Shown here: piece after piece, positions 14,817 through 35,500 of the stretch | Layout: the number at the start of each line of letters is the position of its first letter | Numbering within the stretch: position 1 is the stretch's first letter | Origin: a virus | DNA: 64,000 bases | Virus record (IMG/VR): IMGVR_UViG_3300027741_000027 | Coordinates: 62,001 to 126,000 of that record | Strand: one strand, 5' to 3' | The notes under the pieces: model-generated | What the model was told of the DNA's origin: nothing | Seen by the model: only the letters and a program-made list of their open reading frames with translations | Database searches by the model: none | Made by a program: the position numbers and the translations under genes

Positions 14817-14948
14817 AAAAAGAAGACTGCGGGTTACCCTATCCCCAGCTACAATAGGGACTCCTAAAGATCCTCAGGCTTTACCATACCTTTACTATTG
14901 GTATGATAGTGGGGGCGGGGCTGCTATGCCCCACCCTTTACCATCTCT

Positions 14949-15221
14949 TTACTTGCGGTCTACGTTCACGCTCAGGTCGAACGCTGCGTTAATCATGTTG
15001 ATGGCCTCACGCAGCATGTCGTCTACTGCGTCTACTGCATCTCTGCGTTGGTCGTGCTGGATAGTGATAGGGTGCCACTCATTCTTCTCTGTGTCCTTGA
15101 TGTAGTCTGTCTCGTCAAGGCTATGAACCAACGCCCATGTTTCCTGCTGTGCATCATGCACCATATCTAGGATGTTGTTGAGGCATGTTGTTGGGTCGTG
15201 GATGATCTTGGTCTTTGGCAT
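14949..15221 (-). CDS. hypothetical helical protein
   Basis: 90 residues from MPKTKIIHDPTTCLNN; start set by GAGAGG 9 nt upstream and by the promoter at 15253-15285, which would lie inside a longer frame. Acidic and helical, with WHPITIQHDQRRDAVDAVDD. Not recognised. First gene after the array's ATCAACCAAT leader. Confidence 0.75.
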   Translation of the reverse strand: MPKTKIIHDPTTCLNNILDMVHDAQQETWALVHSLDETDYIKDTEKNEWHPITIQHDQRRDAVDAVDDMLREAINMINAAFDLSVNVDRK

Positions 15222-15252
15222 TTGGCCGTTCCTCTCATTGGTTGATGGAATC

Positions 15253-15285
15253 ATCTTAGCAGGTGCTAGGTAAAGTAAAGGTAAA
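15253..15285 (-). promoter_or_regulatory. array promoter (boxes TTTACC, TTTACC; 10-bp offset)
   Basis: Extended -10 TGC-TAAGAT; TTTACC 10 bp upstream and TTTACC 11 bp further. The leader contains CCATCAACCAAT before the SD. Confidence 0.75.
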
Positions 15286-15288
15286 GCT

Positions 15289-15528
15289 TTATGATCCCCA
15301 ACCGCGAGCCTGACCATACGGATCATTGACTTCACGGTATAGGCGCTGTTCTGCCTGCTCCTGAGCGTCTGCGGCGGCGGCGGCAGGGTCAGCGGCCTGT
15401 AGTGCTTCCTTTTTTGCCTGAGCGTCTCTAAGACGCTTTAGGGCTTCATCGTATGCCTGTTGATCCTGTGCGCGTCTCATATCGAACGCTGCATCAGTCA
15501 TCAGGTTTCTATAATCATTGATTGTCAT
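15289..15528 (-). CDS. hypothetical helical, Ala/Gln-rich protein, leaderless
   Basis: 79 residues, a continuous amphipathic helix rich in Ala, Gln, Asp and Arg (AYDEALKRLRDAQAKKEAL), probably coiled coil. The ATG is 6 nt after the -10 TAGGAT with no SD, so it is likely leaderless. Confidence 0.72.
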   Translation of the reverse strand: MTINDYRNLMTDAAFDMRRAQDQQAYDEALKRLRDAQAKKEALQAADPAAAAADAQEQAEQRLYREVNDPYGQARGWGS

Positions 15529-15534
15529 GGATTC

Positions 15535-15567
15535 ATCCTAGCAGGTCGAAGGTAAAGGAAAGGCAAA
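15535..15567 (-). promoter_or_regulatory. array promoter (TTTGCC, TTTACC; 10-bp offset)
   Basis: TGC-TAGGAT with TTTACC 10 bp upstream and TTTGCC 11 bp beyond. Drives 15528. Confidence 0.75.
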
Positions 15568-15623
15568 ACATCTGTTGCATGTTGTGCAACACGATCCATC
15601 TGGTCCTTCCCGCCCACCCTGTA

Positions 15624-15667
15624 AGTGTATCGCCATCCGGCGGCGGCAAGAGTAAAGATATGGCAAA
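15624..15667 (-). promoter_or_regulatory. upstream array promoter (TTTGCC, TTTACT; 21-bp offset)
   Basis: TACACT with TTTACT 21 bp upstream and TTTGCC 11 bp beyond. The first transcribed bases are G-rich (GGGTGGGCGGGAAGG). Tandem with the promoter about 90 bp downstream. Confidence 0.6.
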
Positions 15668-15697
15668 AGATTGGAGGGGGCGATTGGCACCCCCTCC
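15664..15697 (-). terminator. rho-independent terminator
   Basis: GGAGGGGG / CCCCCTCC stem then AATCTTTTGCC on the - strand, just after the winged-helix gene. It overlaps the boxes of the upstream array promoter. Confidence 0.75.
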
Positions 15698-15708
15698 GCT
15701 CTTGCTTG

Positions 15709-15978
15709 CTACGCTTTTGCTGCGAACCTGCGGCCCTTGTCTGTCAGGCCGTAGTAGTGGGCAGGGCGGCCACGCTTCTCGCTCTTGACCTTGCCTGTGA
15801 TCTTGACCAGACCGGCCTTCTGCATCCGTGTCATAAATGACGGGGCAACCTCAAGGCTCATGGCCGTTGCTTGGCCCTTCTGTGCCTTGATTGCTGCCAT
15901 TACAGTGGCGGCGTTGGCCTCACCGAAGATTGTGCGGTGGTGCTTGGTGGTCTTGGTGGTTGTCTTGGTTGATGGCAT
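15709..15978 (-). CDS. winged-helix DNA-binding protein
   Basis: 89 residues from MPSTKTTTKTTKHHR; start set by CAAGGAG. Basic N-terminal tail, then helices and a wing: VAPSFMTRMQKAGLVKITGKV, then GRPAHYYGLTDKGRRFAA, the usual recognition-helix and wing pattern of MarR/PadR/ArsR-like folds. It lies within the small-gene block carrying the TTTRCY-box promoters and is a natural candidate for their regulator (inference only). Confidence 0.82.
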   Translation of the reverse strand: MPSTKTTTKTTKHHRTIFGEANAATVMAAIKAQKGQATAMSLEVAPSFMTRMQKAGLVKITGKVKSEKRGRPAHYYGLTDKGRRFAAKA

Positions 15979-16018
15979 TTGGATTATCTCCTTGTTGGTT
16001 GATTGCCTTGTGTTACAC

Positions 16019-16062
16019 ACTGTATCAAATGATTTGATATTGAAAGGTAAAAGGTAAGTAAA
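16019..16062 (-). promoter_or_regulatory. array promoter (TTTACT, TTTACC; 21-bp offset)
   Basis: TACAGT with TTTACC 21 bp upstream and TTTACT 11 bp beyond. The leader has AATCAACCAACAAGGAG. An AT inverted repeat ATCAAATGATTTGAT lies between. Confidence 0.7.
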
Positions 16063-16074
16063 ATTTAGTCTTCG

Positions 16075-16269
16075 TCAAACGGGCATATTCTTTACGCCGT
16101 ACTGAATCGCCATCTGTAACCAATTCCAGTGAAGGGGGGCGTAAAGCTCTTGCGTTCTCTGGCAAGAATGGCGTAATCCGCAATTCCCGAATGGCATATG
16201 CCAATTGCCTTCTTCGCTGCTACTCCAATGTTCATACGGAGTCGGAGTCTTCTTTTTGTTGGGGTGCAT
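16075..16269 (-). CDS. hypothetical protein
   Basis: 64 residues from MHPNKKKTPTPYEHW, chosen because CAGGAG lies 8 nt upstream and an array promoter lies inside any longer frame. Rich in Trp, His and Asn, with three Cys (NCGLRHSCQ). Not recognised. Confidence 0.65.
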   Translation of the reverse strand: MHPNKKKTPTPYEHWSSSEEGNWHMPFGNCGLRHSCQRTQELYAPLHWNWLQMAIQYGVKNMPV

Positions 16270-16297
16270 TCTTATCTCCTGATTGGTTGATAGAGTC

Positions 16298-16330
16298 ATA
16301 CTATCAGGTGCTAAGTAAAGAAAAAGTAAA
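16298..16330 (-). promoter_or_regulatory. array promoter (TTTACT, TTTACT; 10-bp offset)
   Basis: TAGTAT with TTTACT 10 bp upstream and a second TTTACT 11 bp beyond. The leader has TATCAACCAATCAGGAG. Confidence 0.75.
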
Positions 16331-16375
16331 ACTTTCCCAATGCTTTTTACTGCCTTGTCCTCCCGCCCGCCCATC

Positions 16376-16418
16376 ATTATAACGACAGGCGGCGGGGCGC
16401 AAGCAAAGGTTAGGTAAA
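16376..16418 (-). promoter_or_regulatory. upstream array promoter (TTTACC, TTTGCT; 20-bp offset)
   Basis: Perfect TATAAT, TTTGCT 20 bp upstream, TTTACC 11 bp beyond. G-rich first transcribed bases (GGGCGGGCGGGAGG). About 80 bp upstream of the promoter at 16298. Confidence 0.65.
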
Positions 16419-16446
16419 GGGTGGAGGGGGCATTTCAGCCCCCTCC
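16412..16446 (-). terminator. rho-independent terminator
   Basis: GGAGGGGG / CCCCCTCC stem followed by ACCCTTTACC on the - strand; weak T-tract. It overlaps the box of the array promoter downstream. Confidence 0.65.
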
Positions 16447-16469
16447 GTGCCGCTCAACCAAACGGCAAA

Positions 16470-16730
16470 CTATGAAATCTCGTCCTGAAGCTCCCAAATC
16501 TCGATCTGATCGGGGTTCTGAGTCTGGAGGTTGGCAAAGTAATCGCCAATCGCCTCGTAGATCACGCGGCCCAGATCATCTTCGTTGATCTCTGACTCGT
16601 CTGGCGTGAACGGTGTCTTAGGCACCGCTACCAGAATCAGGCAATCTTCGTGAGCTTCTGCGTCCTGAGCAAGCTCATAGAAAGACTTAGGTGCTGCTTC
16701 GATCTTGTTACGACGGTTAAAGAACTTCAT
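16470..16730 (-). CDS. hypothetical acidic protein
   Basis: 86 residues (MKFFNRRNKIEAAPK start) with GAAGGAG upstream. LILVAVPKTPFTPDESEINE suggests a central strand, then acidic helices ending EIWELQDEIS. Not recognised. Directly downstream of the ncRNA gene. Confidence 0.72.
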   Translation of the reverse strand: MKFFNRRNKIEAAPKSFYELAQDAEAHEDCLILVAVPKTPFTPDESEINEDDLGRVIYEAIGDYFANLQTQNPDQIEIWELQDEIS

Positions 16731-16764
16731 GTGATTCTCCTTCGGTTGATTTACTGTGTTTCAC

Positions 16765-16807
16765 ACTCTAGCAGGTCAATTGGAGCTAAAGGTAAAGGAA
16801 TGGCAAA
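16765..16807 (-). promoter_or_regulatory. array promoter (TTTGCC, TTTACC; 20-bp offset)
   Basis: TGC-TAGAGT, TTTACC 20 bp upstream, TTTGCC 11 bp beyond; an extra TTTAGC follows the second box. The leader has AATCAACCGAAGGAG. Confidence 0.75.
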
Positions 16808-16821
16808 ACATTAAATTTGAT

Positions 16822-16868
16822 AAAGAAAGGGCCGGGATTGGGGAACTGTGAAATTCCTCTCCCGGCCC
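16822..16868 (-). terminator. terminator of the ncRNA
   Basis: 9-bp stem GGGCCGGGA / TCCCGGCCC enclosing a second small hairpin GGAA/TTCC, then TTTCTTTATC. Confidence 0.85.
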
Positions 16869-17133
16869 TAACTGTCGCATATGCTGGCTATACCTGCTCA
16901 GTGCGCCTATCTTCTGAGTCAGTCGGCTTTATAGCTGCCTTATCGCTGGACACTCTCTACTTTGAGTTCCGAACCCATGATAGCTGTATAGTCGTCTATC
17001 CACTGCACTCGCACCTATGTTAGCGTGGCATCTCATCACGGTCTGTTTTACGAGATTGCTACCGACTCTCGTTAGTCCTCTAACCGACCGTCGCCGGTCT
17101 GACTACATGGCCGATGGGCTAGCTCCATCAACA
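16822..17133 (-). ncRNA. novel structured non-coding RNA, about 310 nt
   Basis: No coding frame on this strand, GC clearly above the flanks, a TTGACT-N17-TATAGT promoter just upstream and a rho-independent terminator at its end. Reading 5' to 3' it contains a chain of short perfect hairpins: GATGG/CCATC, GACCG(GCGA)CGGTC, GTTAG(AGGA)CTAAC, CGAGA/TCTCG, ATAG(ACGA)CTAT, and a nested arm GCTATA...CTCAG/CTGAG...TATAGC. Several loops are tetraloops and one is GNRA. I cannot match it to tmRNA (no tRNA-like ends), RNase P, 6S or GOLLD. Its 5' end UUGUUGAUGG can pair with the ATCAAC leader of neighbouring genes. Confidence 0.8.
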
Positions 17134-17139
17134 AGAACA

Positions 17140-17184
17140 ACTATACAGATGGCCCCATATGAAGTCAAGTAAAGGTTTAGTAAA
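17140..17184 (-). promoter_or_regulatory. ncRNA promoter with box pair
   Basis: TTGACT (17163-17168), 17 bp, TATAGT (17140-17145): the only array promoter with a good -35. TTTACT boxes at 17168-17173 and 17179-17184 (11-bp spacing) lie just upstream, a 22-bp offset. Confidence 0.8.
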
Positions 17185-17232
17185 GGATTTACCAATGCAA
17201 TGGATGGTCTTTGTTCCGCCCTCCCACCCTTC

Positions 17233-17275
17233 ATTATAGCAACAAAACCAATACGAAAAGTAAAGGTTTTGCAAA
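17233..17275 (-). promoter_or_regulatory. upstream array promoter (TTTGCA, TTTACT; 20-bp offset)
   Basis: TGC-TATAAT, TTTACT 20 bp upstream, TTTGCA 11 bp beyond. First bases G-rich (GGGTGGGAGGGCGG). About 90 bp upstream of the ncRNA promoter. Confidence 0.65.
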
Positions 17276-17526
17276 AAGCCTATAAAGTGGAAACAGAGAA
17301 AGGTGATGTATTCAGGGTTTTCTTTACTTTTCAGTAGTTTACCCGGATACTTTTCATATTATATAAAGGGGAATATTTTACTTTATATATATTGGTATAT
17401 TTCACTAGGGATATTCTTAGTCTTTTCCCTGCAAAATAAAGGTTTTTATTTTTATAAAATAATACAATAAATTGATTATATCATATTTTTTCCATTTGTC
17501 AAGTAAATATTTGGTTAATACTTTAC
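17276..17526. other. AT-rich non-coding stretch
   Basis: No gene seen. Very AT-rich, with ATATATAT-type runs, a long TTTTTATTTTTATAAAATAA tract and TTTACTT repeats. Together with 17587-17767 it is a candidate for a replication origin or a complex control region (inference). Confidence 0.5.
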
Positions 17527-17659
17527 TTATGCCTTAGCTGCACAAAATACCATCACTGCACCTACAACTGCAAATAATACGGTCATAATTCCTTTCAGAT
17601 TGAATATTTTACTTATAAGTATGAATACTTTACTTATGATAAGGGATATATTACTTATC
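17372..17659 (+). repeat. TTTACTTAT iteron-like repeats
   Basis: AATAYTTTACTTATR occurs near 17517-17531, 17603-17617 and 17624-17638, with degenerate copies near 17372 and 17645. The last three are exactly 21 bp apart (two helical turns). They share the TTTACT core with the promoter boxes but lie on the opposite strand. A G-rich tract follows at 17674-17712. Confidence 0.6.
17527..17586 (-). CDS. 19-aa hydrophobic microprotein
   Basis: MTVLFAVVGAVMVFCAAKA, a single membrane span with a C-terminal Lys. GAAAGGA is placed 5 nt before the ATG. It resembles in style the 20-aa and 34-aa membrane peptides at 19233 and 21985. Too short to prove from sequence alone. Confidence 0.4.
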   Translation of the reverse strand: MTVLFAVVGAVMVFCAAKA

Positions 17660-17767
17660 ACCTATTATATACACGGGAGGAAGTGGGGGTGAGTGGAGGG
17701 GGGTGGATAGGTGAACAACCTCACATTGAGCCATTCCATTTGGATTGAAGCACCTCACCCTGCCACC

Positions 17768-17896
17768 TCACAATCCTGCATTCTTCATTTTTGCTTCCCA
17801 ATGCTTATCGTCAATCCATTTGTAAAACTTGAGCGAATTATCCCTCATAGACAGATATAGCTTTTCTTTTGCCTTATTTATTGTTTTCATTATCAT
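17768..17896 (-). CDS. 42-aa basic protein
   Basis: MIMKTINKAKEKLYLSMRDN start, ending KHWEAKMKNAGL. The start overlaps the upstream stop (ATGA); MKTINK at 17890 is an alternative. The pattern KEKxYL ... W-D-x-K-x-W resembles the proteins at 18692, 18867 and 20988, suggesting a family of small paralogues. Confidence 0.55.
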   Translation of the reverse strand: MIMKTINKAKEKLYLSMRDNSLKFYKWIDDKHWEAKMKNAGL

Positions 17897-18129
17897 GCCC
17901 AAGCTCCCTTGTCTTTATTTCCAAATGGGCCGTTACATTCATCGCAAAAAATATAATCCTCCTCAGGGAATTTTTCTACAATTAAATGAATAGGGCCATC
18001 ATAAGCAATATTATTGCAATCAGGCATACGACACTCTCTAGAAGCTGGATAATCAAATGGCGCGGTTATATGAGTGCCAAGACTACCATCTATTTGATCG
18101 TCTACTATTGGGTCTATTTCTTTATTCAT
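17893..18129 (-). CDS. small zinc-ribbon protein
   Basis: 78 residues. CRMPDCNNIA (about 33-39) and FCDECNG (about 61-66) give a four-Cys zinc site. Begins MNKEIDPIVDDQIDG after AAGAATAACA, a weak SD. Unknown role. Confidence 0.7.
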   Translation of the reverse strand: MNKEIDPIVDDQIDGSLGTHITAPFDYPASRECRMPDCNNIAYDGPIHLIVEKFPEEDYIFCDECNGPFGNKDKGAWA

Positions 18130-18334
18130 TGTTATTCTTTTTTCTTGTCAATAGTTCTAGCCTATGACTCCATAGGTCTATAACCAAAGTATATATGGGC
18201 GAAATAACTGCTCGTCTTTCTGGCAGTAATGCTTCCGCCTTTTGGAGATGAATACCAATAAGATGAAGTGATATATATTGGCGTTCAAATCGAAGGCCGA
18301 TTATTCTTTTCTTTGTATTTATTGTTTTATTCAT
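18122..18334 (-). CDS. hypothetical basic protein
   Basis: 70 residues, MNKTINTKKRIIGLRFERQY start, hydrophobic and basic, ending RKKNNNE. The leader AAGAAATAACA before the ATG recurs at neighbouring genes. Not recognised. Confidence 0.6.
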   Translation of the reverse strand: MNKTINTKKRIIGLRFERQYISLHLIGIHLQKAEALLPERRAVISPIYTLVIDLWSHRLELLTRKKNNNE

Positions 18335-18425
18335 TGTTATTTCTTTCTTATTGTTTTATATGTATTCTGGGGATAATCTGAGGGATGATTATGGGCGATT
18401 ATCAGTATAGCCAACTGTCGTGAGT

Positions 18426-18662
18426 CTAGGCATCTAGCTCCTCCCACTTTTCTTTTTCTTTTAGGTCTGTGGTATACATTGCGAAACCGAATAGGCCGAA
18501 CCTCACACGAATATACTTTTCATATGAATTAGTTGTTCGACGGTATACGCCAAATAAATCTTTCAATAAAGCAAGCACCTTTCGGAAAAGACGAGTACGC
18601 CCTGCCCAAACAATCTTGATTTCTTTATTCTTTGTTTTATATATTGTTTTATCTATTTCCAT
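18426..18662 (-). CDS. hypothetical basic protein
   Basis: 78 residues from MEIDKTIYKTKNKEIKIVW; start set by AAAGGA 8 nt upstream. Basic centre (RTRLFRKVLALLKDLFGVYRR) that could bind nucleic acid or a membrane surface. Not recognised. Confidence 0.62.
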   Translation of the reverse strand: MEIDKTIYKTKNKEIKIVWAGRTRLFRKVLALLKDLFGVYRRTTNSYEKYIRVRFGLFGFAMYTTDLKEKEKWEELDA

Positions 18663-18691
18663 TGTGTTTTCCTTTGTTATTCTGAGATAGG

Positions 18692-18874
18692 TTATCGGCG
18701 ATCTCTTTTGTCTATTGAGGCCGATATTCTTTTCCATTTAGCTTTATCCATTGACAGATAGCTCCACTTGCCAATCCGATCAGCGTACAGGGCAATCTTC
18801 AAATAAATCTTTTCTTTTATGGTGGCCGATTTGATTCTTGCCTCGCATTTAGCTTCCCATATTACTTTATTCAT
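18692..18874 (-). CDS. small basic protein (KEKxYL...W paralogue)
   Basis: 60 residues: MNKVIWEAKCEARIKSATIK, then KEKIYLKIAL and DKAKWKRI. AAGGATAACA precedes the ATG. Similar layout to 17768 and 20988 proteins. Overlaps the next gene by 8 nt. Confidence 0.6.
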   Translation of the reverse strand: MNKVIWEAKCEARIKSATIKEKIYLKIALYADRIGKWSYLSMDKAKWKRISASIDKRDRR

Positions 18875-19049
18875 TGTTATCCTTTTTTGCCCATGAATCT
18901 AGGTCGTACTTATCAACATTAGCAATCATGCGCTCAGTATTTCTTTTCTTATCACCTGCCGCATCCCAAAACTTTTTATCGCTCCAAGTGTAAACTCTAA
19001 ACGAATAATTGCAAATGAAATCGTATGTTCTTTTCTTTATATTAGTCAT
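18867..19049 (-). CDS. small basic protein
   Basis: 60 residues, MTNIKKRTYDFICNYSFRVY start, then TWSDKKFWDAAGDKK. CAGGAATA precedes the ATG. Probably of the same small-protein family (W-S/D-D-K-x-x-W). Driven by a TATAAT at 19137-19142. Confidence 0.6.
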   Translation of the reverse strand: MTNIKKRTYDFICNYSFRVYTWSDKKFWDAAGDKKRNTERMIANVDKYDLDSWAKKDNNE

Positions 19050-19136
19050 TATTCCTGTATATTTCTTTTTTGATTACATCTGTTTGCTTCTCAGGCCGAT
19101 TTTCTTTATTTTATATAAAGATTGCCTGCTCACTTC

Positions 19137-19186
19137 ATTATATCAAAGATGTTCACTTATATCTATTATGTAACAAATGTTACATA
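19137..19186 (-). promoter_or_regulatory. TATAAT with upstream palindromic operator
   Basis: TATAAT at 19137-19142 and a perfect 9-bp inverted repeat TATGTAACA-AA-TGTTACATA at 19167-19186, 24 bp upstream. The palindrome looks like an activator or repressor site. Confidence 0.5.
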
Positions 19187-19195
19187 TAAAATAAA

Positions 19196-19228
19196 GTGCA
19201 AAAAAGAGAGGGCTTGCGCCCCCTCTCA
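19196..19228 (-). terminator. rho-independent terminator
   Basis: GAGAGGG / CCCTCTC stem with an 8-nt loop, then TTTTTTGC on the - strand. Ends the 19489-19233 unit. Confidence 0.9.
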
Positions 19229-19232
19229 AACT

Positions 19233-19295
19233 CTATCCTGCTGCCCACATCACACTTATAAGTATGATAAATAAGAATAAAGCAATGCCGATCAT
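19233..19295 (-). CDS. 20-aa membrane microprotein
   Basis: MIGIALFLFIILISVMWAAG, nearly all hydrophobic. ATG overlaps the upstream stop (ATGA) and TGGAGGG lies 5 nt before it. A terminator follows at once, so this is the last gene of its transcript. Confidence 0.5.
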   Translation of the reverse strand: MIGIALFLFIILISVMWAAG

Positions 19296-19489
19296 TCGGC
19301 CCTCCACTTACCGTCGCGCCAGATGTATCCCCAATCACTCATTTCTTCGTGATCTTCGTCAGTGCAACGACAGGTGCCATCGCCACTGTAATGATCTGGC
19401 ATAAGAATAAAGTAATCACAGGCCATGACTTCTTTGCGGGCGATTTCTTTATTTACAAACATTGCGTCAAGCAGATTTACTCGTCCCAT
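19292..19489 (-). CDS. hypothetical protein with CRC motif
   Basis: 65 residues behind CAGGAGG. MGRVNLLDAMFVNKEIARKE start; GTCRCTDEDHEEMSDWGYIW in the second half could bind metal. Not recognised. Confidence 0.68.
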   Translation of the reverse strand: MGRVNLLDAMFVNKEIARKEVMACDYFILMPDHYSGDGTCRCTDEDHEEMSDWGYIWRDGKWRAE

Positions 19490-19519
19490 TTGGGAACCTC
19501 CTGATTAGTTGATGTAACC

Positions 19520-19552
19520 ATCGTAGCAAATGCTAGGTAAAGAACGAGTAAA
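19520..19552 (-). promoter_or_regulatory. array promoter (TTTACT, TTTACC; 10-bp offset)
   Basis: TGC-TACGAT, TTTACC 10 bp upstream, TTTACT 11 bp beyond. The leader has CATCAACTAATCAGGAGG. Confidence 0.75.
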
Positions 19553-19554
19553 AC

Positions 19555-19713
19555 CTACTCCTCAATTTCGATAATATCGGCACACTCGCCATCTTCATTG
19601 ACTAGGATAGCTTCTCTATGGCCGTCCATCACAAGGTCATACGCTTGCTCAGTAGAGTCAGCTTCGACCTCCCAATACTTTCTAATTACTTCTGTAACTT
19701 CGTATCTAGGCAT
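19555..19713 (-). CDS. 52-aa protein, paralogue of upstream gene
   Basis: MPRYEVTEVIRKYWEVEADS start. Shares MP(R/K)YEV, a V-E-A strand, E-x-A helix layout with the next gene (MPKYEVLVPELHYQTVTVEA), so probably a tandem duplicate. Its ATG overlaps the upstream stop. Confidence 0.65.
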   Translation of the reverse strand: MPRYEVTEVIRKYWEVEADSTEQAYDLVMDGHREAILVNEDGECADIIEIEE

Positions 19714-19924
19714 TAGTTACCTCCTGAATCATCCAATCATAATTTTCAATGTAATTAAAAGCGTTATCAAGGTAATCATCCATTACGCAAGAATACTCTA
19801 GCTTACCTTCGACAACATCTCCACCGCCGTCAATAATACTTTTGATAGCTTCACGCTCATTTTCAGCCTCTACAGTGACCGTCTGATAGTGAAGCTCCGG
19901 CACCAATACTTCGTACTTAGGCAT
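19706..19924 (-). CDS. small acidic protein
   Basis: 72 residues, MPKYEVLVPELHYQTVTVEA start then ENEREAIKSIIDGGG, an alpha/beta pattern common in phage small proteins. Ends NYDWMIQEVTNA. Coupled to both neighbours. Confidence 0.68.
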   Translation of the reverse strand: MPKYEVLVPELHYQTVTVEAENEREAIKSIIDGGGDVVEGKLEYSCVMDDYLDNAFNYIENYDWMIQEVTNA

Positions 19925-19927
19925 TAG

Positions 19928-20146
19928 TTACGCCCGATCCCAGACGGGCCAATCGGCAGATTCGGCAATGTCAAGAACATTGTCAATAATTCCTTTTGCG
20001 TCAATTGGATTCCAAGACTCGTCATACACATCCGGCATATCGGGCAAGAAGATGTTTTCGTACTCCTGCAATACGCGAACCACCTCATTAGTTTCGGTGT
20101 CCACGAATACCGTGACGGGAACCATATACTGAACCGCTGCTTCCAT
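19928..20146 (-). CDS. small protein, paralogue of 23689-23910
   Basis: 72 residues. MEAAVQYMVPVTVFVDTETN, then VVRVLQE and ADWPVWDRA, the same order as the protein at 23689 (VVQYTVPVSVFVNTETG ... YDWPAWDQA). ATAGGAGG precedes the ATG. Function unknown; a duplicated family under the same promoter type. Confidence 0.72.
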   Translation of the reverse strand: MEAAVQYMVPVTVFVDTETNEVVRVLQEYENIFLPDMPDVYDESWNPIDAKGIIDNVLDIAESADWPVWDRA

Positions 20147-20177
20147 AACTGCCTCCTATTTGGTTGATTGCAATATA

Positions 20178-20203
20178 GGGCGGGGCTGTACGCCACCCCG
20201 CCC
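20178..20203. promoter_or_regulatory. strong hairpin in 5' leader / + strand terminator
   Basis: 8-bp stem GGGCGGGG / CCCCGCCC. On the + strand it is followed by TTTTCTTTT, a terminator shape; on the - strand it lies in the leader of the 20146 gene, before AATCAACCAAATAGGAGG, and could modulate its expression. Confidence 0.6.
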
Positions 20204-20240
20204 TTTTCTTTTAGCCGGGATTCTCACCCTGTCTACGATC

Positions 20241-20273
20241 AGTCTAGCAAATCGAATGTAAAGGAAGGGTAAA
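20241..20273 (-). promoter_or_regulatory. array promoter (TTTACC, TTTACA; 10-bp offset)
   Basis: TGC-TAGACT, TTTACA 10 bp upstream, TTTACC 11 bp beyond. Confidence 0.72.
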
Positions 20274-20282
20274 ACTATGAAA

Positions 20283-20501
20283 CTATTTACTTTTGTAATT
20301 GACTGCTTCTGCAAACACTCCATCGCCGTCCCAAAGACTAATGAGGAAGGCATATTTCCACAGACAAAGCACAAAGCTACGAACTACATAATCACCATCA
20401 TTACTTTTTTGACGATAGAGTGTCACTCCTACGTTTCGCATAATTTGATGATTTTCATGCCAACGAACTTGCAATTCTTTATTTTTGATGTTGAATTTCA
20501 T
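20283..20501 (-). CDS. hypothetical protein
   Basis: 72 residues from MKFNIKNKELQVRWHENHQI, the ATG overlapping the upstream stop (ATGA). Strand-rich with a central SFVLCLWKYAFLISLW hydrophobic stretch. Not recognised. Confidence 0.62.
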   Translation of the reverse strand: MKFNIKNKELQVRWHENHQIMRNVGVTLYRQKSNDGDYVVRSFVLCLWKYAFLISLWDGDGVFAEAVNYKSK

Positions 20502-20812
20502 TTGTTTACCGATTTGTGAAGTGTGGTCAAGACGACCCATTTGTTTTCTTTTTTATCAAAAACAACAGGGCAAACTATATGACCTCTGTTTAATAAAAGA
20601 TAATGGGAAGTAGAACGCCGACCTCTGACCCAGCTTGGTTTCTTTTCTTTTGGCACAATAATAACATTGCGAAGATAGCCGGTACGCTTGATCCCCATAT
20701 GAGAGATTTCATTTATGATTCTCTCTTGATCTAAGCTCACGGGCAAGACTCTACCATAGTATCGCTCAATGGCGTGATGTGTAAATATAAGTTGTTCAGG
20801 TTTGACTTGCAT
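20498..20812 (-). CDS. hypothetical protein with FTxHAxxRYxxR start
   Basis: 104 residues. The opening IFTHHAIERYYGRVLP resembles the HAxxRxxxR opening of small RelE-like or DUF4258-like proteins, but the rest (GRRSTSHYLLLNRGHIVCPVVFD) gives no firm match. A basic alpha/beta protein; toxin or nuclease-like role is speculation. Confidence 0.68.
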   Translation of the reverse strand: MQVKPEQLIFTHHAIERYYGRVLPVSLDQERIINEISHMGIKRTGYLRNVIIVPKEKKPSWVRGRRSTSHYLLLNRGHIVCPVVFDKKENKWVVLTTLHKSVNK

Positions 20813-20827
20813 TACTTTTTATAAAAC

Positions 20828-21028
20828 CTATCCTATGAATGACACTAGCAGGGCCGTAGATGCCATAGACCAAACTATAGCGATTCCTATGCGGTGCCTA
20901 GTGTGCTTACAGAACCCGCGAGCGTAGTAGCCACCCAATGCGGCTAGACCCTCAAAGCCAAGATGCAAAATATAATCAACTAATAATTTATTTATAGCCC
21001 ATCTCCTTCTTATCCCAATATTCATCAT
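20828..21028 (-). CDS. small membrane protein
   Basis: 66 residues: basic N-terminus, then hydrophobic segments around LHLGFEGLAALGGYYARG and IGIAIVWSMASTALLVSFIG. The start is uncertain: the AAGGAG lies inside the frame as drawn, so the true start may be further downstream. Confidence 0.5.
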   Translation of the reverse strand: MMNIGIRRRWAINKLLVDYILHLGFEGLAALGGYYARGFCKHTRHRIGIAIVWSMASTALLVSFIG

Positions 21029-21119
21029 GGCTTCTGAAATAGTTATCTATGGCCCAATAATATGTTTTATTAGCGATCCGCGCTATCTTTTGATAAACTT
21101 TTCGTTTAATATATATCAT
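20988..21119 (-). CDS. 43-aa protein (small paralogue family)
   Basis: MIYIKRKVYQKIARIANKTY, then HDEYWDKKEMGYK. ATG overlaps the upstream stop (ATGA). Shares the basic helix and D-x-x-W-D-K-K pattern with 17768 and 18867. Confidence 0.58.
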   Translation of the reverse strand: MIYIKRKVYQKIARIANKTYYWAIDNYFRSHDEYWDKKEMGYK

Positions 21120-21352
21120 ATAAAATATCCAAGTGCCTTCTGAACCTTGTCGTCCCATCCGTAGTCAATCCTTCGCCCGTAATGCTCTCTAAGCGCATCA
21201 CGCTTCTCAGGCATATTAACATAGACGTTACAAGCCTTTAGAGACTCTGAATGATTGCCAGCCACATATGCCGGGTCGAAGATGACTTCATCATCATCAT
21301 CAACGACAATCCAGCGATCAGAAGGGTATTTATTTCCTGTTACAACTCTCAT
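21116..21352 (-). CDS. hypothetical protein
   Basis: 78 residues, DRWIVVDDDDEVIFDPAYVA near the start, alpha/beta. Overlaps the upstream gene. Not recognised. Confidence 0.66.
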   Translation of the reverse strand: MRVVTGNKYPSDRWIVVDDDDEVIFDPAYVAGNHSESLKACNVYVNMPEKRDALREHYGRRIDYGWDDKVQKALGYFI

Positions 21353-21518
21353 CTTTAAACTTTACTAATTCGATATTTATTGTGATGATTGGTAGGCCGA
21401 TTTCAAGCCCGGTGTATTTGGTGCCGCGCTTAGTGTCGAACCTGTAGCTCCTGAGCATTAAGCCAAACTGCCAGCCAATTGCAGAGTCAATCCAAACTGT
21501 ATATTTTCCAATACTCAT
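21330..21518 (-). CDS. hypothetical protein
   Basis: 62 residues, beta-rich (KYTVWIDSAIGWQFG, LEIGLPIITINIELVKF). Start overlaps the upstream stop (ATGA). Not recognised. Confidence 0.62.
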   Translation of the reverse strand: MSIGKYTVWIDSAIGWQFGLMLRSYRFDTKRGTKYTGLEIGLPIITINIELVKFKDESCNRK

Positions 21519-21655
21519 TTTTTATTTGGCTTCCATCTACGAAACGGGTTACAAATAATTATGCAAGGGCAGCTATCATATTCTTTGTTATCGCCAAAAG
21601 CGGAAAAGGTTGTACCGACGTACCAGAACCTATTATCAAATAAAAATTTACGCAT
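21515..21655 (-). CDS. 46-aa protein with CPC motif
   Basis: MRKFLFDNRFWYVGTTFSAF, then YDSCPCIIIC and a basic end RRWKPNKK. Both ends overlap neighbouring genes (TGATG and ATGA), strong support for a real frame. Confidence 0.6.
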   Translation of the reverse strand: MRKFLFDNRFWYVGTTFSAFGDNKEYDSCPCIIICNPFRRWKPNKK

Positions 21656-21873
21656 CACGCCTCCACAACTCTTGAGAGGGAGGCGGCTTCGGCATCACGA
21701 AGGATGGCAAGCTGCTCCTGAGCTACCTCTACAAGCATAGCTGCGTGTTGGATCTCCTTAGAGTCCATCAGGCTCTCAGCACCGGACAGATGAACTGAAT
21801 CACTGTCGTCCATGTAAGCGATGGCCCTAAGACCGAAATCGCCAACTACTTCTACTTTGATTAGGTAATCCAT
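21655..21873 (-). CDS. hypothetical acidic protein
   Basis: 72 residues from MDYLIKVEVVGDFGLRAIAY; start set by AAAGGAG 9 nt upstream. Strand-strand-helix, ending AILRDAEAASLSRVVEA. Upstream is a TGC-TACAGT extended -10 without TTTRCY boxes. Confidence 0.68.
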   Translation of the reverse strand: MDYLIKVEVVGDFGLRAIAYMDDSDSVHLSGAESLMDSKEIQHAAMLVEVAQEQLAILRDAEAASLSRVVEA

Positions 21874-21913
21874 TGTTAGTTCTCCTTTGATTCGATTGCG
21901 TAAGAACACTGTA

Positions 21914-21922
21914 GCAGGTTCT
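21914..21922 (-). promoter_or_regulatory. extended -10 without TTTRCY boxes
   Basis: AACCTGCTACAGT resembles the -10 region of the array promoters, but no box pair is seen upstream. Confidence 0.4.
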
Positions 21923-21984
21923 CAGGCGTTCATAGATTTGGGTGCATGATCTTTATTAGAAAGCAATACAACGCTGCGATTACT

Positions 21985-22089
21985 TTATTCATCATCTTCG
22001 TCATTGTTTCTACTTAGCAAGATCAACACAAGCGTCATAATTGTTACATAAAGTATGGTTAAACCTGCTGCCATTGTGACAAAGTGCAT
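21985..22089 (-). CDS. 34-aa single-span membrane protein
   Basis: MHFVTMAAGLTILYVTIMTL, then VLILLSRNNDEDDE: one membrane span with an acidic C-terminal tail. GAGGAG is 8 nt before the ATG and the gene follows its neighbour directly. A 24-aa frame (MTKMMNKVIAALY...) overlaps its end. Confidence 0.55.
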   Translation of the reverse strand: MHFVTMAAGLTILYVTIMTLVLILLSRNNDEDDE

Positions 22090-22094
22090 TTCGA

Positions 22095-22313
22095 TCACTC
22101 CTCTTCATTCTTGCAATGAGCGCACCACGGACGGTCGCAATCAGCAATTCTTATTGTATTACCATTTGTGCGTAGTGGGCTTACCCACCAATCAACATCA
22201 GATTCATTTTCCCATACTTCGATAGCATCGTCTGTCGTTGCATAAGGGCCATAGACGGTAATCCCATTCAAGGGATCGCCAACTACTACCACCACTCCAT
22301 TTGTATCAGTCAT
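22095..22313 (-). CDS. hypothetical protein with CAHC motif
   Basis: 72 residues: VVVVVGDPLNGITVYGPYAT, DDAIEVWEN helix, end CDRPWCAHCKNEEE. Alpha/beta core with three Cys. Overlaps the upstream gene by 8 nt. Confidence 0.66.
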   Translation of the reverse strand: MTDTNGVVVVVGDPLNGITVYGPYATTDDAIEVWENESDVDWWVSPLRTNGNTIRIADCDRPWCAHCKNEEE

Positions 22314-22563
22314 TACTTTCTACCTTCCATGTAAAGCCAGCCTGATCGAGGTAGGTATCACCACGACGTAGGGCCAGCAGAGCGCTATTAATAATTGCGG
22401 CACGATCAACTGCGTAGACCTCAGGATCATCGTCCTCGTCCACGTTCAGCAACAGCAGAGTCTCTTCTGCTGCATCAGCAACAACTGACAGGAACTCGTC
22501 ATCGCCATGAAAAACGTATCCGCCTTCTGCCCCGTCATTGCTATAAAAAACAAGCTCAGTCAT
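22306..22563 (-). CDS. hypothetical acidic protein
   Basis: 85 residues: MTELVFYSNDGAEGGYVFHG, EETLLLLNVDEDDDPEVYAV. Very acidic. Overlaps both neighbours. Not recognised. Confidence 0.66.
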   Translation of the reverse strand: MTELVFYSNDGAEGGYVFHGDDEFLSVVADAAEETLLLLNVDEDDDPEVYAVDRAAIINSALLALRRGDTYLDQAGFTWKVESND

Positions 22564-22798
22564 TTTCTTTTTTATTCTCCAATATTCCTTCTACAGTATC
22601 AATCACTGATTGCAATGATTGTGTTTTATTGATTTTAGCTTTCGCTACGTTGAGCCTAGCAAATCCTTCATAGCTATTCAAGTTCTGAATAGCGAACGTC
22701 AGATCCTCTAGGCCGTTCTCTACGCTTTTGTGAATGCCGTACAGGACAACCTCCATCTCGTCAATCACATCTTGTATTTCGTGCTTTTCGTAACTCAA
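22556..22798 (-). CDS. hypothetical helical protein, TTG start
   Basis: 80 residues from TTG (AAAGGA lies 7 nt upstream). Predicted all-helical, charged (EIQDVIDEMEVVLYGIHKSV). Lies inside the 3' part of the 22898 gene at its start. Confidence 0.6.
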   Translation of the reverse strand: MSYEKHEIQDVIDEMEVVLYGIHKSVENGLEDLTFAIQNLNSYEGFARLNVAKAKINKTQSLQSVIDTVEGILENKKEND

Positions 22799-22898
22799 TT
22801 TTTTCCTTTAGCTTCTCTGGTGTCCAATTTTTATACTCAAAAAGAGCGTTGATGCGCTCTTTTTCTTTTGCTTTATCTGATTTCTTTTTATTAGCCAT
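22761..22898 (-). CDS. 45-aa Lys-rich protein
   Basis: MANKKKSDKAKEKERINALF, then WTPEKLKEKIELRKA. Strongly basic helix. Its 3' third overlaps the next gene in another frame. A stem GGCGACTA/TAGTCGCC lies in its leader. Confidence 0.52.
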   Translation of the reverse strand: MANKKKSDKAKEKERINALFEYKNWTPEKLKEKIELRKARNTRCD

Positions 22899-22908
22899 AA
22901 ACGGTGAC

Positions 22909-22941
22909 GGCGACTACCCCCTTTGACAGAAAATAGTCGCC
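22909..22941. promoter_or_regulatory. leader hairpin
   Basis: 8-bp inverted repeat GGCGACTA / TAGTCGCC whose - strand loop carries AAAGGGGG. No T-run on the - strand, so probably not a terminator. Confidence 0.4.
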
Positions 22942-22968
22942 GCATTGTTTAACTATTGCGTCAAATGC

Positions 22969-29509: not shown

Positions 29510-32500
29510 TGTGGGATTTCTCTTTTCAAAAAGAATCTACGGATAATCATGATTGGACACCGGGGCGACTCGGTGCCGGATATATCCACGCTAGAACGAA
29601 TACCCCAGATTCGTTCAACCTGCTTGACTATAGCATACGCACATGGTCAGTAGGCCCAGACTATACAGATGACATTGACCGCGAGTACCAGCGTATTCGC
29701 GCTACTGATCTTGTCGTATTTAAGTTTTATATTACACCTACAGGTGGTATCCATGATCGTGGCGAAGGTTTTAAGAATAGAACCGGCAAGTCAGATCGTT
29801 CTGTAATTGCCTTTCTTCATCGTAAAGATAATCGTTTTTATGATGGACGCAATGATATTAAGACAAGCGCAACAGAAGATAGCGCACTGCACTTTAATCA
29901 TTATACAGGTGAGCCTTGCTACTGCGGATTTGGTCAGACGCATGGCTTAGAGAAGGAAGCCAATCTAAAGTATAAAGATATTAAACGAGGCGAGCTTCCA
30001 GAAAGCTATTATATGAATTTGGAAGGCGAAAATGGCAGGGTTTTTCGAGATTATGTTGTTGCTTTAGCCGAAGGCGGAGAGGTTGTAGGCGCTGGAGGTA
30101 ATACAGAAACAATAGAGGCGATTCCCGGAATCAAAAAAGTTATTCCGTGGATTGTCGGTCAAATGAAAAAAGGAACTCTTAATTTTGAATCGGGTCGTCG
30201 CAGCACCAGACCCGGTTTTGAGCGCGTTGTTTCTGAAAGAAACTTTGAATTTTGGTCGCCGGGACGCCTTGAAAATATTGCTGATTTATTTAATGCCGAA
30301 GGATCTCCTTATCAAAACAAACTTGTAGAGTGTCCAGAGTGCAAGGGAAAAGGAGAAAAGTGGAATACGGAGGTTGAAGCTCATGTAATGTGCGATAGAT
30401 GCATGGCACACAAAACTGCGCCAAGTAATCAAAAAGAAAACTTGATGGAGCTACCTCCAGACGAAATAGAAACAAGAGCTAAACGCCATCGAAATTGGGT
30501 TAGAGAGCGCGAAGCAGAAGCTATGCGCAAAGCCGATGTTAAAAATCAAGAGAGGGTTTACGAATTTACTGATCCAGACCATAAAGGCTGGTTTGTTACA
30601 AGACTTAATCCTGATGCTGGTGAGGCTAAACGAGTTGGCATTGAGCAAGGCAATTGTTTTCAACAGGAGGCGCAGGGCTATCAAAGGTCAGTTGCAGAGG
30701 GCGATTTAACTGTTTATGTATTAAGGGATCCTAAAGGGTTGGGTCATGCGCTATGGGCTTATGACCGCGATGGCAAAATCGCGGTTATGGAAGATTCTAG
30801 TAAACTTTATAACAAACGAGGCAAAGGTTGGGTAGGTTATGAAGTAAATAATCAATGGATTCGAAATATGATTAATGAAGCCAGTGATGCCTTAGGTATG
30901 CAAAAAAGATACCACAAAGATAATTATGATGTTCAACTGCCCGATGTTTTAACAGTAGATCAATTTTTAATTCAATTTTCAAACGATGATTCGGATGCAT
31001 ATAAACAATTAGTTGCAAAATCCGCAGATGAACAAGATATTGATGCGGATATGGTTTCGGAAGTTATAAAAGGTCGCGTTGATTGGAGGTCCATTGTCGG
31101 AGATTTGTTTAACGGGCCAACTACCGGAAACCTATCTGATGAACAAATCCCTTTTAATGATTTTATAAAAATTATGGATGGTGATGATCGTCTTATCTTT
31201 GCTTTGGATCAATTTGTTCAAGAAGCAGATAGAAGAATATCAGACCCAGAAGTAGAAGCCAATCAGCGCAATCAAGATCATGTAAATGATTATAAAGAGT
31301 GGAAAAAAATTCACACTCATCCATATACTGGCGAATATACACACCCAGAAACATGGGCAAATACCGCTTGGCACAAAAATGACTATGAAGAATTTCGTGA
31401 AAATTTCAGTGACAGTCCGTGGGCTTTTTCACTTCCTGATTGGGACACATTTATTTCTGAGTGGGGCGGCAAACTTCCAGCAAGTTTAAATCCTGCTTAT
31501 CGAAAAGGCAAACCTGTAATTGAAACCAGTGCTTGCAAAAAATGTGGTGGGTCTGGTCGTCTTATTACTCCAAATGGTTATGTCACTTGTGATAAATGTT
31601 GGGGTGATGGTGATGAACGAAATAAAGTTGTATTTCCTGATCCAGAATCAGATGCCGCCAAGTGTCAGTCCTGTGCAGGATCAGGCGTCGATCAAAGCAA
31701 AGTTCAACACCTTAAACAACAGGTTGAGCAATTAAAAGCAGATGGTGTTCATGACCGTCTTATTGTTGAATTTGAAAGAACTTTAGGAAGAAAAGATTTA
31801 CAAAATACTGATTTGCGTTGCGGGGCTTGTAATGGCACGGGCAAAAACAAGCCTGCCGCAAAGCTCATGGAAGAGGGTTCAGGGCAACTTAAATTTGGTA
31901 AAAAGAAACAAGACAATTACATTGTTCACTTTGATTCTATTACAGGCAAGCCATGCACCTGTGGATTTGGTGCATATAGGAATACCAATGAAGATGGCGA
32001 GCGATTCTTTAAAGAAGCATCAGGTTACAAGTTTAAAGAAATTACAAAGAGTCCGCCTTCATTTCTTCAAAATGAAGAGGGTCAAGCCCTCATTGAGTAT
32101 TTAACATCTCTTATTAAGGGTGTTGGCGAGAATCCTCAACCCATACTAGAGGGAGCTAAAACTCTTGTTCCGTGGATTGTTAAACAGTTCAAAGAAGGCA
32201 ATCTTACTTACAATCCAAACGAAGATCGATCATATTATACGGGCATTGAAAGAGTGTATCCGGGTGGAAATACACCAATTGATTTTGATGAGTTAGAGTT
32301 CATAGTTAATTATGTTAATGCAAGCGAAGGCCCATATAGACAAAATGTTGATTGGATGTCTTTTGATTTTATTGACCTAATACGTCAGGGGATGAGGCAT
32401 CATGAGTGGGTTAAAGAAAAAGAAAAAGACGCTAAGTTTTTAGCAAATCAAAACACCGTTTATACATTTGATGACTCTAACCTTGAATGGGTTGGTTGGA

Positions 32501-35500
32501 CTGTTGCTAAATTAGAAGACGAAAATGAAGTTGAGCAAGAAGGAATAAGGCAGGGCAATTGTATTAAAGACGAAGAAAGCGGTTATTTAGAAGCTTTTGA
32601 TAAAGGTTATCTTGATCTTTATGTATTGAGAGATACATTTGGAGGCAGTCATGCAATTTGGGGATATAACACAGACGATGGTTCTGTGGCATTTATGGAG
32701 GATTCTTCTAAAAGATATGCAGAAGAGAGAAGGCGAACTGACTTTCCTTACTACAAGGTAAATGTCCCATTTATTCGTGAAATGATTTCTACTGCTAATC
32801 AAGCACTTGGTTTAGATGATGACTACGATAATGGTAGTTATAATTATAATAGAGGTGAAACTGGTGAAGATTGTTACGATAGAAATAGGGAGCATTGGAG
32901 GCCAGAGCGGGAAGAAGAGGAAGAGGAGGAAGAGGAGGAAAAGGAAGCACTTGAAATTCAATTGTCAGATGTAACAAGTTTTGCAGAATACGAAGCTCAA
33001 TATGGCGAGGACAATAATTGTTGGGAGCTTGCAGCAAGGGAGGCACAAGATGAAGGTCTTATTATTGGCGATGATACACAGATTTATCCCGGCTCAATTC
33101 ATTGGGATGATATAGCCTATGAATACTTTAATACTCCAAGAGACTTTCAAACCAACTTAGATTTGTTGAACAAATGGGCCGCAGTTTTTCATAATCAATT
33201 TCAGATTGGAGATTTTTACGAAGAGTGTCAAAGGTATTTAGAAACAGCAGATCTTGATGAAGAAGACGATGCAGAAATACAGGCTTACCAAGAGTGGGTT
33301 AAATTACACACAAATCCGCTTACGGGTAAATTTCAAGATCCTAGAGGAATTTCGCCAAGTAATTTAGATAGATTAAGAAGGCAAGAAGAAGAAAACGTTT
33401 GGGGATTCTCTGTTCCAAGCGATGAAGATTTAGCATCATTTAACGGCATTCTTCCTGCGGGCTTAAATCCACAAAACAGAAGAGGCGAGCCATTACATAC
33501 AAAAATTCAATGCCTGTCTTGCGGTGGAGCTGGAGGAGATCCTAATACTGGCGCAACGTGTCGGGCCTGTAATGGAACGGGTATGATGCAGGCTAGAGCC
33601 ACAATGCCCGATTGGGAAACAAGATTGAAAAATCGGGGCGAGAACGGTGGAATTCCAAACCCCGCAGCAATGATTCATGAAGAGCCATCAGGTCAATTGT
33701 TTATGGCAAAGAAAAAGTGGGACATGACCCCTCTTAGTTTTACCGACCAATTGAAACTTCACTTATCAACGATTGAAGCTAAGGTTTCTCATGATCTTAG
33801 CTGGGTAGCTGGTGGTCGCGGTCGCGGCCTTATGCTCAATAGCGGTAAACTTATCACTTGGCCAGTGAACAAGAAAGGCGAGCCGCAGCATCCTGATATG
33901 TATGAATACCTTACAGGACACAAATTGCCTGAGACTCATTCCGTACATGATTTTACAGAAGGCATCCCATTTGATATTAATGAAGATGGATCGGTCAATT
34001 GGTTCTCTAAGGATACATCGCCTGATCTTATTGCTGATATCTCCAAGATTGATTATCGACTTAAAACTTCCGCAATTGATCCTTGTTGGAGAACGGGGGA
34101 ATGCGCAGCCTTTGCTCTTGCAGCACACGATTTAACAGGTTGGCCAATCTTTAAAATTGACGAAAGACCAAACGGTGGGGCGTGGCACTTTATGGTTCAG
34201 ACACCAAACGGCGACTTTTTAGATGGCGATGGAATTAGAAGAGGAGAGGAAATTTTAGCTGAGCATAGCGAGGCTGCCGAAGAACTTGCAAAGACCCATG
34301 ACATCTATCCTTCCAGCAGAGAAGAAGTAGTGGCTTATGGTTCAAATGTAATAGAGAAGGCAAAAGAAGCCACACCTATTATTCAAAACATGTTGAAATC
34401 TTCTAAAACTTATGAAGGGTTTGATGTTCATTTCCACCCTTACACGGGCGAGCCATGCACTTGCGCTTATGGTCAATCACCAAACAACAGACGCACAGCA
34501 TCACAGGCTGTTCGTAAAGTAAAGAATCAAGATCAGAAGCATATGCGCAGTGAAAAAGGTCAAGCCATTCTTGATTATCTACATAAACTTATTTCAGGTC
34601 ACGGTCTGAGTGAGCAAGGTGAATTCGGGCGAGGTCCGGCTCCCGGTCTTGAAGGCATGGTGCCATGGATTGTAAAACAAATCAAAACAGAAGACATTAA
34701 ACCGTTTACTTATGACGATGGAGAAGTGTATGGTCTTGGTCGCTTTTCAACTATGGAATTTAGCTCTGTTCAACAGGCGAAGATGGCACTTGCTGGTAAA
34801 CATGAATCATTGATTAGTGTTCAGCAGAATTACGAATCAGATTATTGGAAGACAAGGTTAGAAAGCTTTGGGTATCAAGTAGATGATACCTACGGAGCAG
34901 TTGATAACCCTGACATTGATGCTGTAGTAATTAACTGCGATATTGTTGGTCCTAATGACCTTATTGATCTTTTAAAGAAGATTCCTGAGGGTACGCCCAC
35001 TTGGATTGGTGGATCAGATGCAATATTGGAACAAATCGGTGCAACGGAAGACGCAGAAGAATATTTGAAGGACTTACTCAAAAGAAACAAAATTAATTCT
35101 CGCAAAATTTACATCACGACGACAATGTATAGAGCAGTGCAAGCAATAGACGACACTGTTAGAGAAGAAAACCCAGACCTATCTAATTTTGAATTACCAG
35201 ATAAGTATTACGCCAAGATCAAACCAGAGGATTGGGCAAATTGGTTTAATGCATCCAACGCACCTGCTCGTCGCAGCAGGACAGAAAAGGAAGTCAGGGC
35301 CGCATTTAATAGGTCAGAGAAATACATTCAGTATCGCATCGAACGGGGAAACAAAACAATTAATGGTGATATTAATTCTCCTATGTATAACGATGATTTG
35401 TTAGGACTTATGGCCGATCAACTAAAAGTTGATGAACGCGATCTTCGTGAGAATATGATGACTACATATAGAGAAATGCAGGCCGATAATGCCATAGATA

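Follow-up and report, generated by a model that had tools for sequence, protein, structure and literature searches.

A predicted stand-alone structured RNA gene in the small-gene array of an uncultivated contractile-tailed phage

The window, i.e. the whole 64-kb stretch of DNA that was analysed, comes from an IMG/VR virus record of 136 kb. The encoded major capsid protein is about 50% identical to those of Ceeclamvirinae and related Gordonia phages, the baseplate resembles actinophage baseplates, and the phage also encodes a sheath protein, DnaE, RNR, and UvsX-like and DnaB-like proteins. Judging from these matches, the phage is an uncultivated contractile-tailed myovirus, distantly related to the Ceeclamvirinae, and its host probably belongs to the actinobacteria. 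A 2504-aa ORF in the window (29509–37023, plus strand) has a PcfJ-like part in addition to DnaJ-type CXXCXGXG zinc repeats and a zinc stretch that resembles anti-TRAP.

Within an array of small genes lies a gene for a structured RNA of about 310 nt; it is not next to a tRNA array, the tRNAs being located at 62–63 kb. IMG/VR was scanned via neighbour genes, capsid genes, DUF932 and patterns, and homologues of the RNA were found in just two other records, G001 (L002) and G002 (L003/L142), where they occupy the same syntenic place. The locus in the window comprises the following elements:

17475–17502, minus strand: perfect sigma-70-type promoter TTGACA-N16-TATAAT with TG-extended -10
17169–17184, minus strand: regulon box pair TTTACTAAACCTTTAC of the RNA gene, 23 nt before the -10
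17163–17168, minus strand: -35 element TTGACT
17140–17145, minus strand: -10 element TATAGT, with an inferred start at about 17133
16822–17133, minus strand: stand-alone structured RNA gene of about 310 nt, identified by promoter, terminator and homologues with a conserved fold
17073–17105, minus strand: hairpin A, stem UAGUC (17105–17101)/GACUA (17077–17073)
17051–17071, minus strand: hairpin B, CGAGA/UCUCG, invariant in all carriers
17039–17064, minus strand: putative pseudoknot of CGGU (17064–17061) with ACCG (17042–17039), from a hand alignment
17004–17030, minus strand: hairpin C, UGC/GCA plus CGC/GCG, conserved loop UAAnAUAGGU
16979–17000, minus strand: hairpin D, GAUAG/CUAUC (GACUG/CAGUC in G002, two compensatory pairs)
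16948–16970, minus strand: hairpin E, GGAACUC/GAGUGUCC, conserved loop around AAAGUAG, two compensatory pairs
16869–16947, minus strand: 3' module with stem F, CUCAG (16918–16914)/CUGAG (16901–16897)
16890–16875, minus strand: conserved UAGCCAGCAUAUGCGA in the 3' module
16822–16868, minus strand: intrinsic terminator with T tract (-26.1 kcal/mol, z -5.0)

The first-pass annotation had proposed a structured non-coding RNA with its own promoter and terminator, a reading that is supported by the transcription signals, by indels and by the compensatory changes described below. The promoter, TTGACT-17-TATAGT on the minus strand, matches the consensus at 10 of 12 positions, and TATAGTnGTTCnTGTTGATGnAGC at the -10/start of the gene is kept in all three carriers. 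The terminator consists of GGGCCGGGA...UCCCGGCCC followed by UUUCUUU (16868–16822); a simple scanner overlooked it because of its long loop. As had been noted, the GC content of the RNA gene (0.519) is higher than that of its flanks (0.467 and 0.344), and there is no coding frame: the minus strand is devoid of ORFs of at least 50 aa, and three single-base indels in the conserved core, window versus G002, break every frame, so that the RNA is not coding. What did not hold is the statement that this promoter has the only good -35 in the array, since the perfect TTGACA-16-TATAAT promoter with its extended -10 is located 340 nt upstream. A one-base-off version of the latter is found in the other two carriers, G001 and G002, and the promoter is absent from two relatives without the RNA gene, G006 and G043. 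Because of this distribution, it may be a second promoter, for a longer, host-promoter-driven form of the RNA.

The RNA gene also shares the box pair of the surrounding regulon, as claimed: one TTTACN6TTTAC copy is positioned directly upstream of it. The 64-kb window has 11 exact copies of this motif versus 0.22 expected. Among the relatives, the box pair mostly precedes a TAnnnT -10 by 11 or 12 nt, and less often it is found about one helical turn further upstream. At the RNA gene of the window and of G001 the distance to the -10 is 23 nt, together with an added -35, and in G002 it is 11 nt, which is the canonical array spacing. The array promoters look like a phage activator-dependent class, with a second spacing class that is one helical turn longer. 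From its position and promoter type, the RNA gene would be expressed early. The 11 exact sites span positions 14880–28830, with the two TTTAC boxes 11 bp apart; at the array promoters TAnnnT follows the second box after 11 nt (12 nt in G043), and a clear -35 hexamer is lacking. A PadR-like winged-helix ORF (15709–16020, minus strand; E 8.6e-5, below the Pfam cut-off) itself follows a box pair and is retained in G002; its product is a candidate regulator of the box-pair promoters. Between array genes there are also promoter-like units, TATAATGnnGGGnGGGnGGG, that include a box pair but are not directly followed by an ORF (16362–16381 and 17219–17238, both minus strand; also in L002, L142, L115 and L157). 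Two exact units are present in the window versus 0.02 expected, and they possibly yield short G-rich transcripts.

The gene downstream of the RNA differs in all three carriers, each time with its own box promoter. G006 and G043 have the same array, including the tiny upstream gene, with a different array unit at the place of the RNA. Both observations point to an exchangeable stand-alone cassette in the small-gene array rather than a cis leader, and in the three carriers we did not find the constant, promoterless downstream gene of a cis leader or riboswitch. A 19-codon ORF, MTVLFAVVGAVMVFCAAKA (17527–17586, minus strand), has a possible ribosome-binding site. It can be recognised in each of the five related records (G000, G001, G002, G006 and G043) and likely encodes a real micro-membrane protein. 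The AT-rich stretch at 17240–17475, which follows the perfect promoter, contains a small inverted repeat, GGGA...TCCCTAGTGAAATATAC, that is conserved and can be traced in G043 too; this stretch is possibly a second RNA or a DNA element.

The two homologues diverge from the window to very different degrees. The G001 RNA is 98% identical through the end of hairpin E; thereafter, about 75 nt of the 3' module are swapped for about 31 nt, followed by the same terminator. The module must therefore be dispensable or different in role. The G002 RNA shows 68% identity across a 133-column core and retains the promoter, the 5' end, the core, the octamer-bearing 3' patch, the terminator and the position. 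No real match was obtained when the RNA was compared by BLAST with 50,697 phage and 72,556 plasmid records, and the exact core pattern gave two chance matches in prokaryote genomes, a Lactococcus and a Clostridiales contig. Covariance model (CM) searches of nine isolates (Myrna, Stormageddon, E3, Finch, Skog, Phrappuccino, HyRo, Pupper and Tonenili) and of 40 IMG/VR records whose capsid genes are related did not yield a convincing match; a 16.5-bit match in G039 was set aside as chance, as the sequence there is apparently coding. We regard the RNA as a real, new and very narrowly distributed RNA family of known kind.

The 5' hairpin of the RNA starts with GUUGAUG. In G002, the stem of hairpin A reads UAGCU/AGCUA, i.e. 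two compensatory pairs, and its apex is variable. From the loop of hairpin B a pseudoknot may form, whose counterpart in G002 is GGAC/GUCC with one compensated pair; this is suggestive only. Hairpins C, D and E carry invariant loop bases. The self-complementary octamer GCAUAUGC is invariant in the two full-length homologues and lost in G001. The short hairpins with GCGA, AGGA and ACGA loops that had been singled out at first are literally present in the sequence, but most of them are not the conserved ones. The GCGA hairpin is located in the variable apex/arm, and the AGGA (GUUAG/CUAAC) and ACGA (AUAG/CUAU) hairpins are displaced in G002 by covarying alternative pairings. What G002 keeps by double changes are the stems UAGUC/GACUA and GAUAG/CUAUC, and the AGGA and ACGA hairpins were rejected as conserved elements.

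The earlier annotation had named compensatory changes among homologues as a check, and these are present between the window and G002, far beyond shuffled alignments. Since G001 is 98% identical to the window, there are only two independent sequences, and all fold statistics are in effect one pairwise comparison, with stems A and F aligned by hand. Fold energy z-scores of the individual sequences are -2.4 (window), -3.9 (G001) and -2.0 (G002). The consensus fold of window and G002 in the MAFFT core has a z of -2.9, with 4 of 500 shuffles as good; when stems A and F are hand-aligned and the variable apex is masked, the z is -3.4 (2 of 500 column shuffles). Ten pairs are doubly compensated versus 2.6 expected, a number reached in none of 500 shuffles. 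In the core, six pairs have double changes, and the signal is gone when the stem partners are slid. In contrast, no excess of double changes is seen in five control stretches (z +0.7, -1.5, -0.9, -1.1 and -1.5), which were taken from four neighbouring protein genes in these two phages. The opposite strand of the core folds equally well, so that the strand assignment rests on the promoter and the terminator.

As first suspected, the RNA falls into no known class. We searched Rfam 15 (4227 families), the window at gathering and permissive thresholds and the G002 copy at permissive thresholds, without a match; the best permissive scores were 14.3 bits for the window (gathering 36) and 17.9 bits for the G002 copy (gathering 39; E 0.03 in a small stretch). 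A tRNA-like domain and tag frame of a tmRNA were found neither by ARAGORN nor by Rfam, the GOLLD/ROOL family covariance models gave no match, and for 6S RNA the Rfam search was negative, and the fold is not a single long rod interrupted by a central bubble. Several functional types were rejected as well. A type III toxin-antitoxin RNA would have a constant downstream toxin gene, which is not the case in the three carriers. Against a CsrA sponge, the GGA count (5 in the window and 3 in G002, by hand) does not exceed the roughly 6–7 expected from composition. Anti-Shine-Dalgarno pairing is weaker than in shuffles, and no excess was seen for pairing with the 3' tail of 16S rRNA. Against a DGR template or retron, the genome has no second similar copy, and the proteins scanned include no reverse transcriptase.

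Our tentative reading, held with some reserve, is that transcription of the RNA goes along with that of the small-gene (host-takeover) regulon and that the RNA acts in trans. Since it is an exchangeable cassette in that regulon rather than a leader, we infer a trans-acting RNA. Fold and terminator would keep it stable, and conserved unpaired patches would most likely dock a host or phage protein, so that during infection the RNA might act as a decoy or form the core of a small ribonucleoprotein. Candidate docking patches are AAACAG, UAAnAUAGGU, AUAGGC and UAGCCAGCAUAUGCGA, together with the hairpin D loop and, around hairpin E, UUCGGA and AAAGUAG. Conservation in loops as well as in stems points to docking or tertiary contacts; a protein-binding motif was not recognised in the RNA. 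That the locus instead works in cis, as a leader or attenuator, or is a DNA element such as a replication origin, is very improbable. An AT-rich stretch with a perfect promoter just upstream resembles a layout known at some phage origins, but a strong terminator closes the RNA gene, the gene that follows varies from carrier to carrier behind a box promoter of its own, pairs are preserved by double changes and not by sequence, and a GC-skew switch was not found at the locus.

It is somewhat unlikely that one or more of these patches instead base-pair with mRNAs of the host or the phage, altering their translation or decay. Several invariant single-stranded patches would suit this mode, which is that of many described phage sRNAs (PMC12197685), yet the fold is far more elaborate than that of a typical pairing sRNA and the tail of 16S rRNA attracts no excess pairing. 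BLASTN of the RNA against its own phage genome (both strands, E <=1) detected only promoter-like or short chance matches and no extended complementarity, and together with the loop conservation this moderately favours docking over pairing. A counter-defence or toxin-antitoxin function, in which the RNA is a decoy or antitoxin against a host defence or is paired with a toxin gene, appears improbable: accessory defence or counter-defence genes typically come and go among close relatives in the cassette-like way seen here, but there is no constant neighbouring partner gene (downstream genes differ per carrier), no Abi_2 domain turned up in the array proteins that were scanned, and no tandem repeat unit is visible by eye. 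Still less probable is an RNA-only architecture, compact or multimeric, held together by the putative pseudoknot and perhaps by the palindrome GCAUAUGC in the manner of GOLLD, ROOL and OLE, which assemble via kissing loops and A-minor contacts (PMC12286853). The many invariant loop bases, the putative pseudoknot and the invariance of the octamer in the two full-length homologues would fit; on the other hand, 310 nt is far below GOLLD size, no tRNA array is adjacent, the palindrome is missing in G001, and neither sequences nor models of Rfam match.

Characterised stand-alone structured RNAs are few in phage genomes, and for actinobacterial phages the literature we found describes only transcripts of unknown role. 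The RNA presented here combines covariation support, a site among small genes of the host-takeover type and cassette-like gain and loss; if expressed, it would be a concrete RNA effector. In a bolder and rather unlikely scenario, actinobacterial myoviruses would have a new class of RNA of which this is an example: a host-takeover effector that is compact, has several domains, possibly self-associates and is exchanged as a cassette among protein effectors of the same regulon. The 132-nt core can serve as a seed model for finding relatives.

Among known systems, 6S RNA and the actinobacterial Ms1-type RNA polymerase-binding RNAs are structured, trans-acting and in a similar size range, but they differ from this RNA, which has no long rod with a central bubble and no Rfam match. 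The tmRNA and tRNA genes of Bixzunavirus relatives are non-coding RNA genes of the same phage group, whereas ARAGORN and Rfam find no tmRNA here. GOLLD and ROOL (PMC12286853) are likewise phage-encoded and highly structured RNAs of unknown function with conserved loops; as they are much longer, often near tRNA islands, and different in sequence and structure, they are similar in kind only. The early Pleft ncRNA of L5, D29 and StarStuff (PMC5712189) is also a stand-alone actinobacteriophage non-coding transcript of several hundred nucleotides, with small early genes nearby, no conserved ORF and an end in a termination region. It differs in its length (about 500 nt), its position at the right genome end and its occurrence in phages of another group. 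With filters off, a CM from our RNA gave only short sub-matches and no convincing one in the D29 right end, the best being 7.3 bits over 22 nt. The L5/D29 ncRNA is abundant and toxic, and its expression and toxicity have been demonstrated (PMC5712189), whereas the RNA described here is predicted from sequence. With no homology found between the two, we consider the toxic early ncRNA of mycobacteriophages L5 and D29 to be, by analogy, its closest functional precedent.
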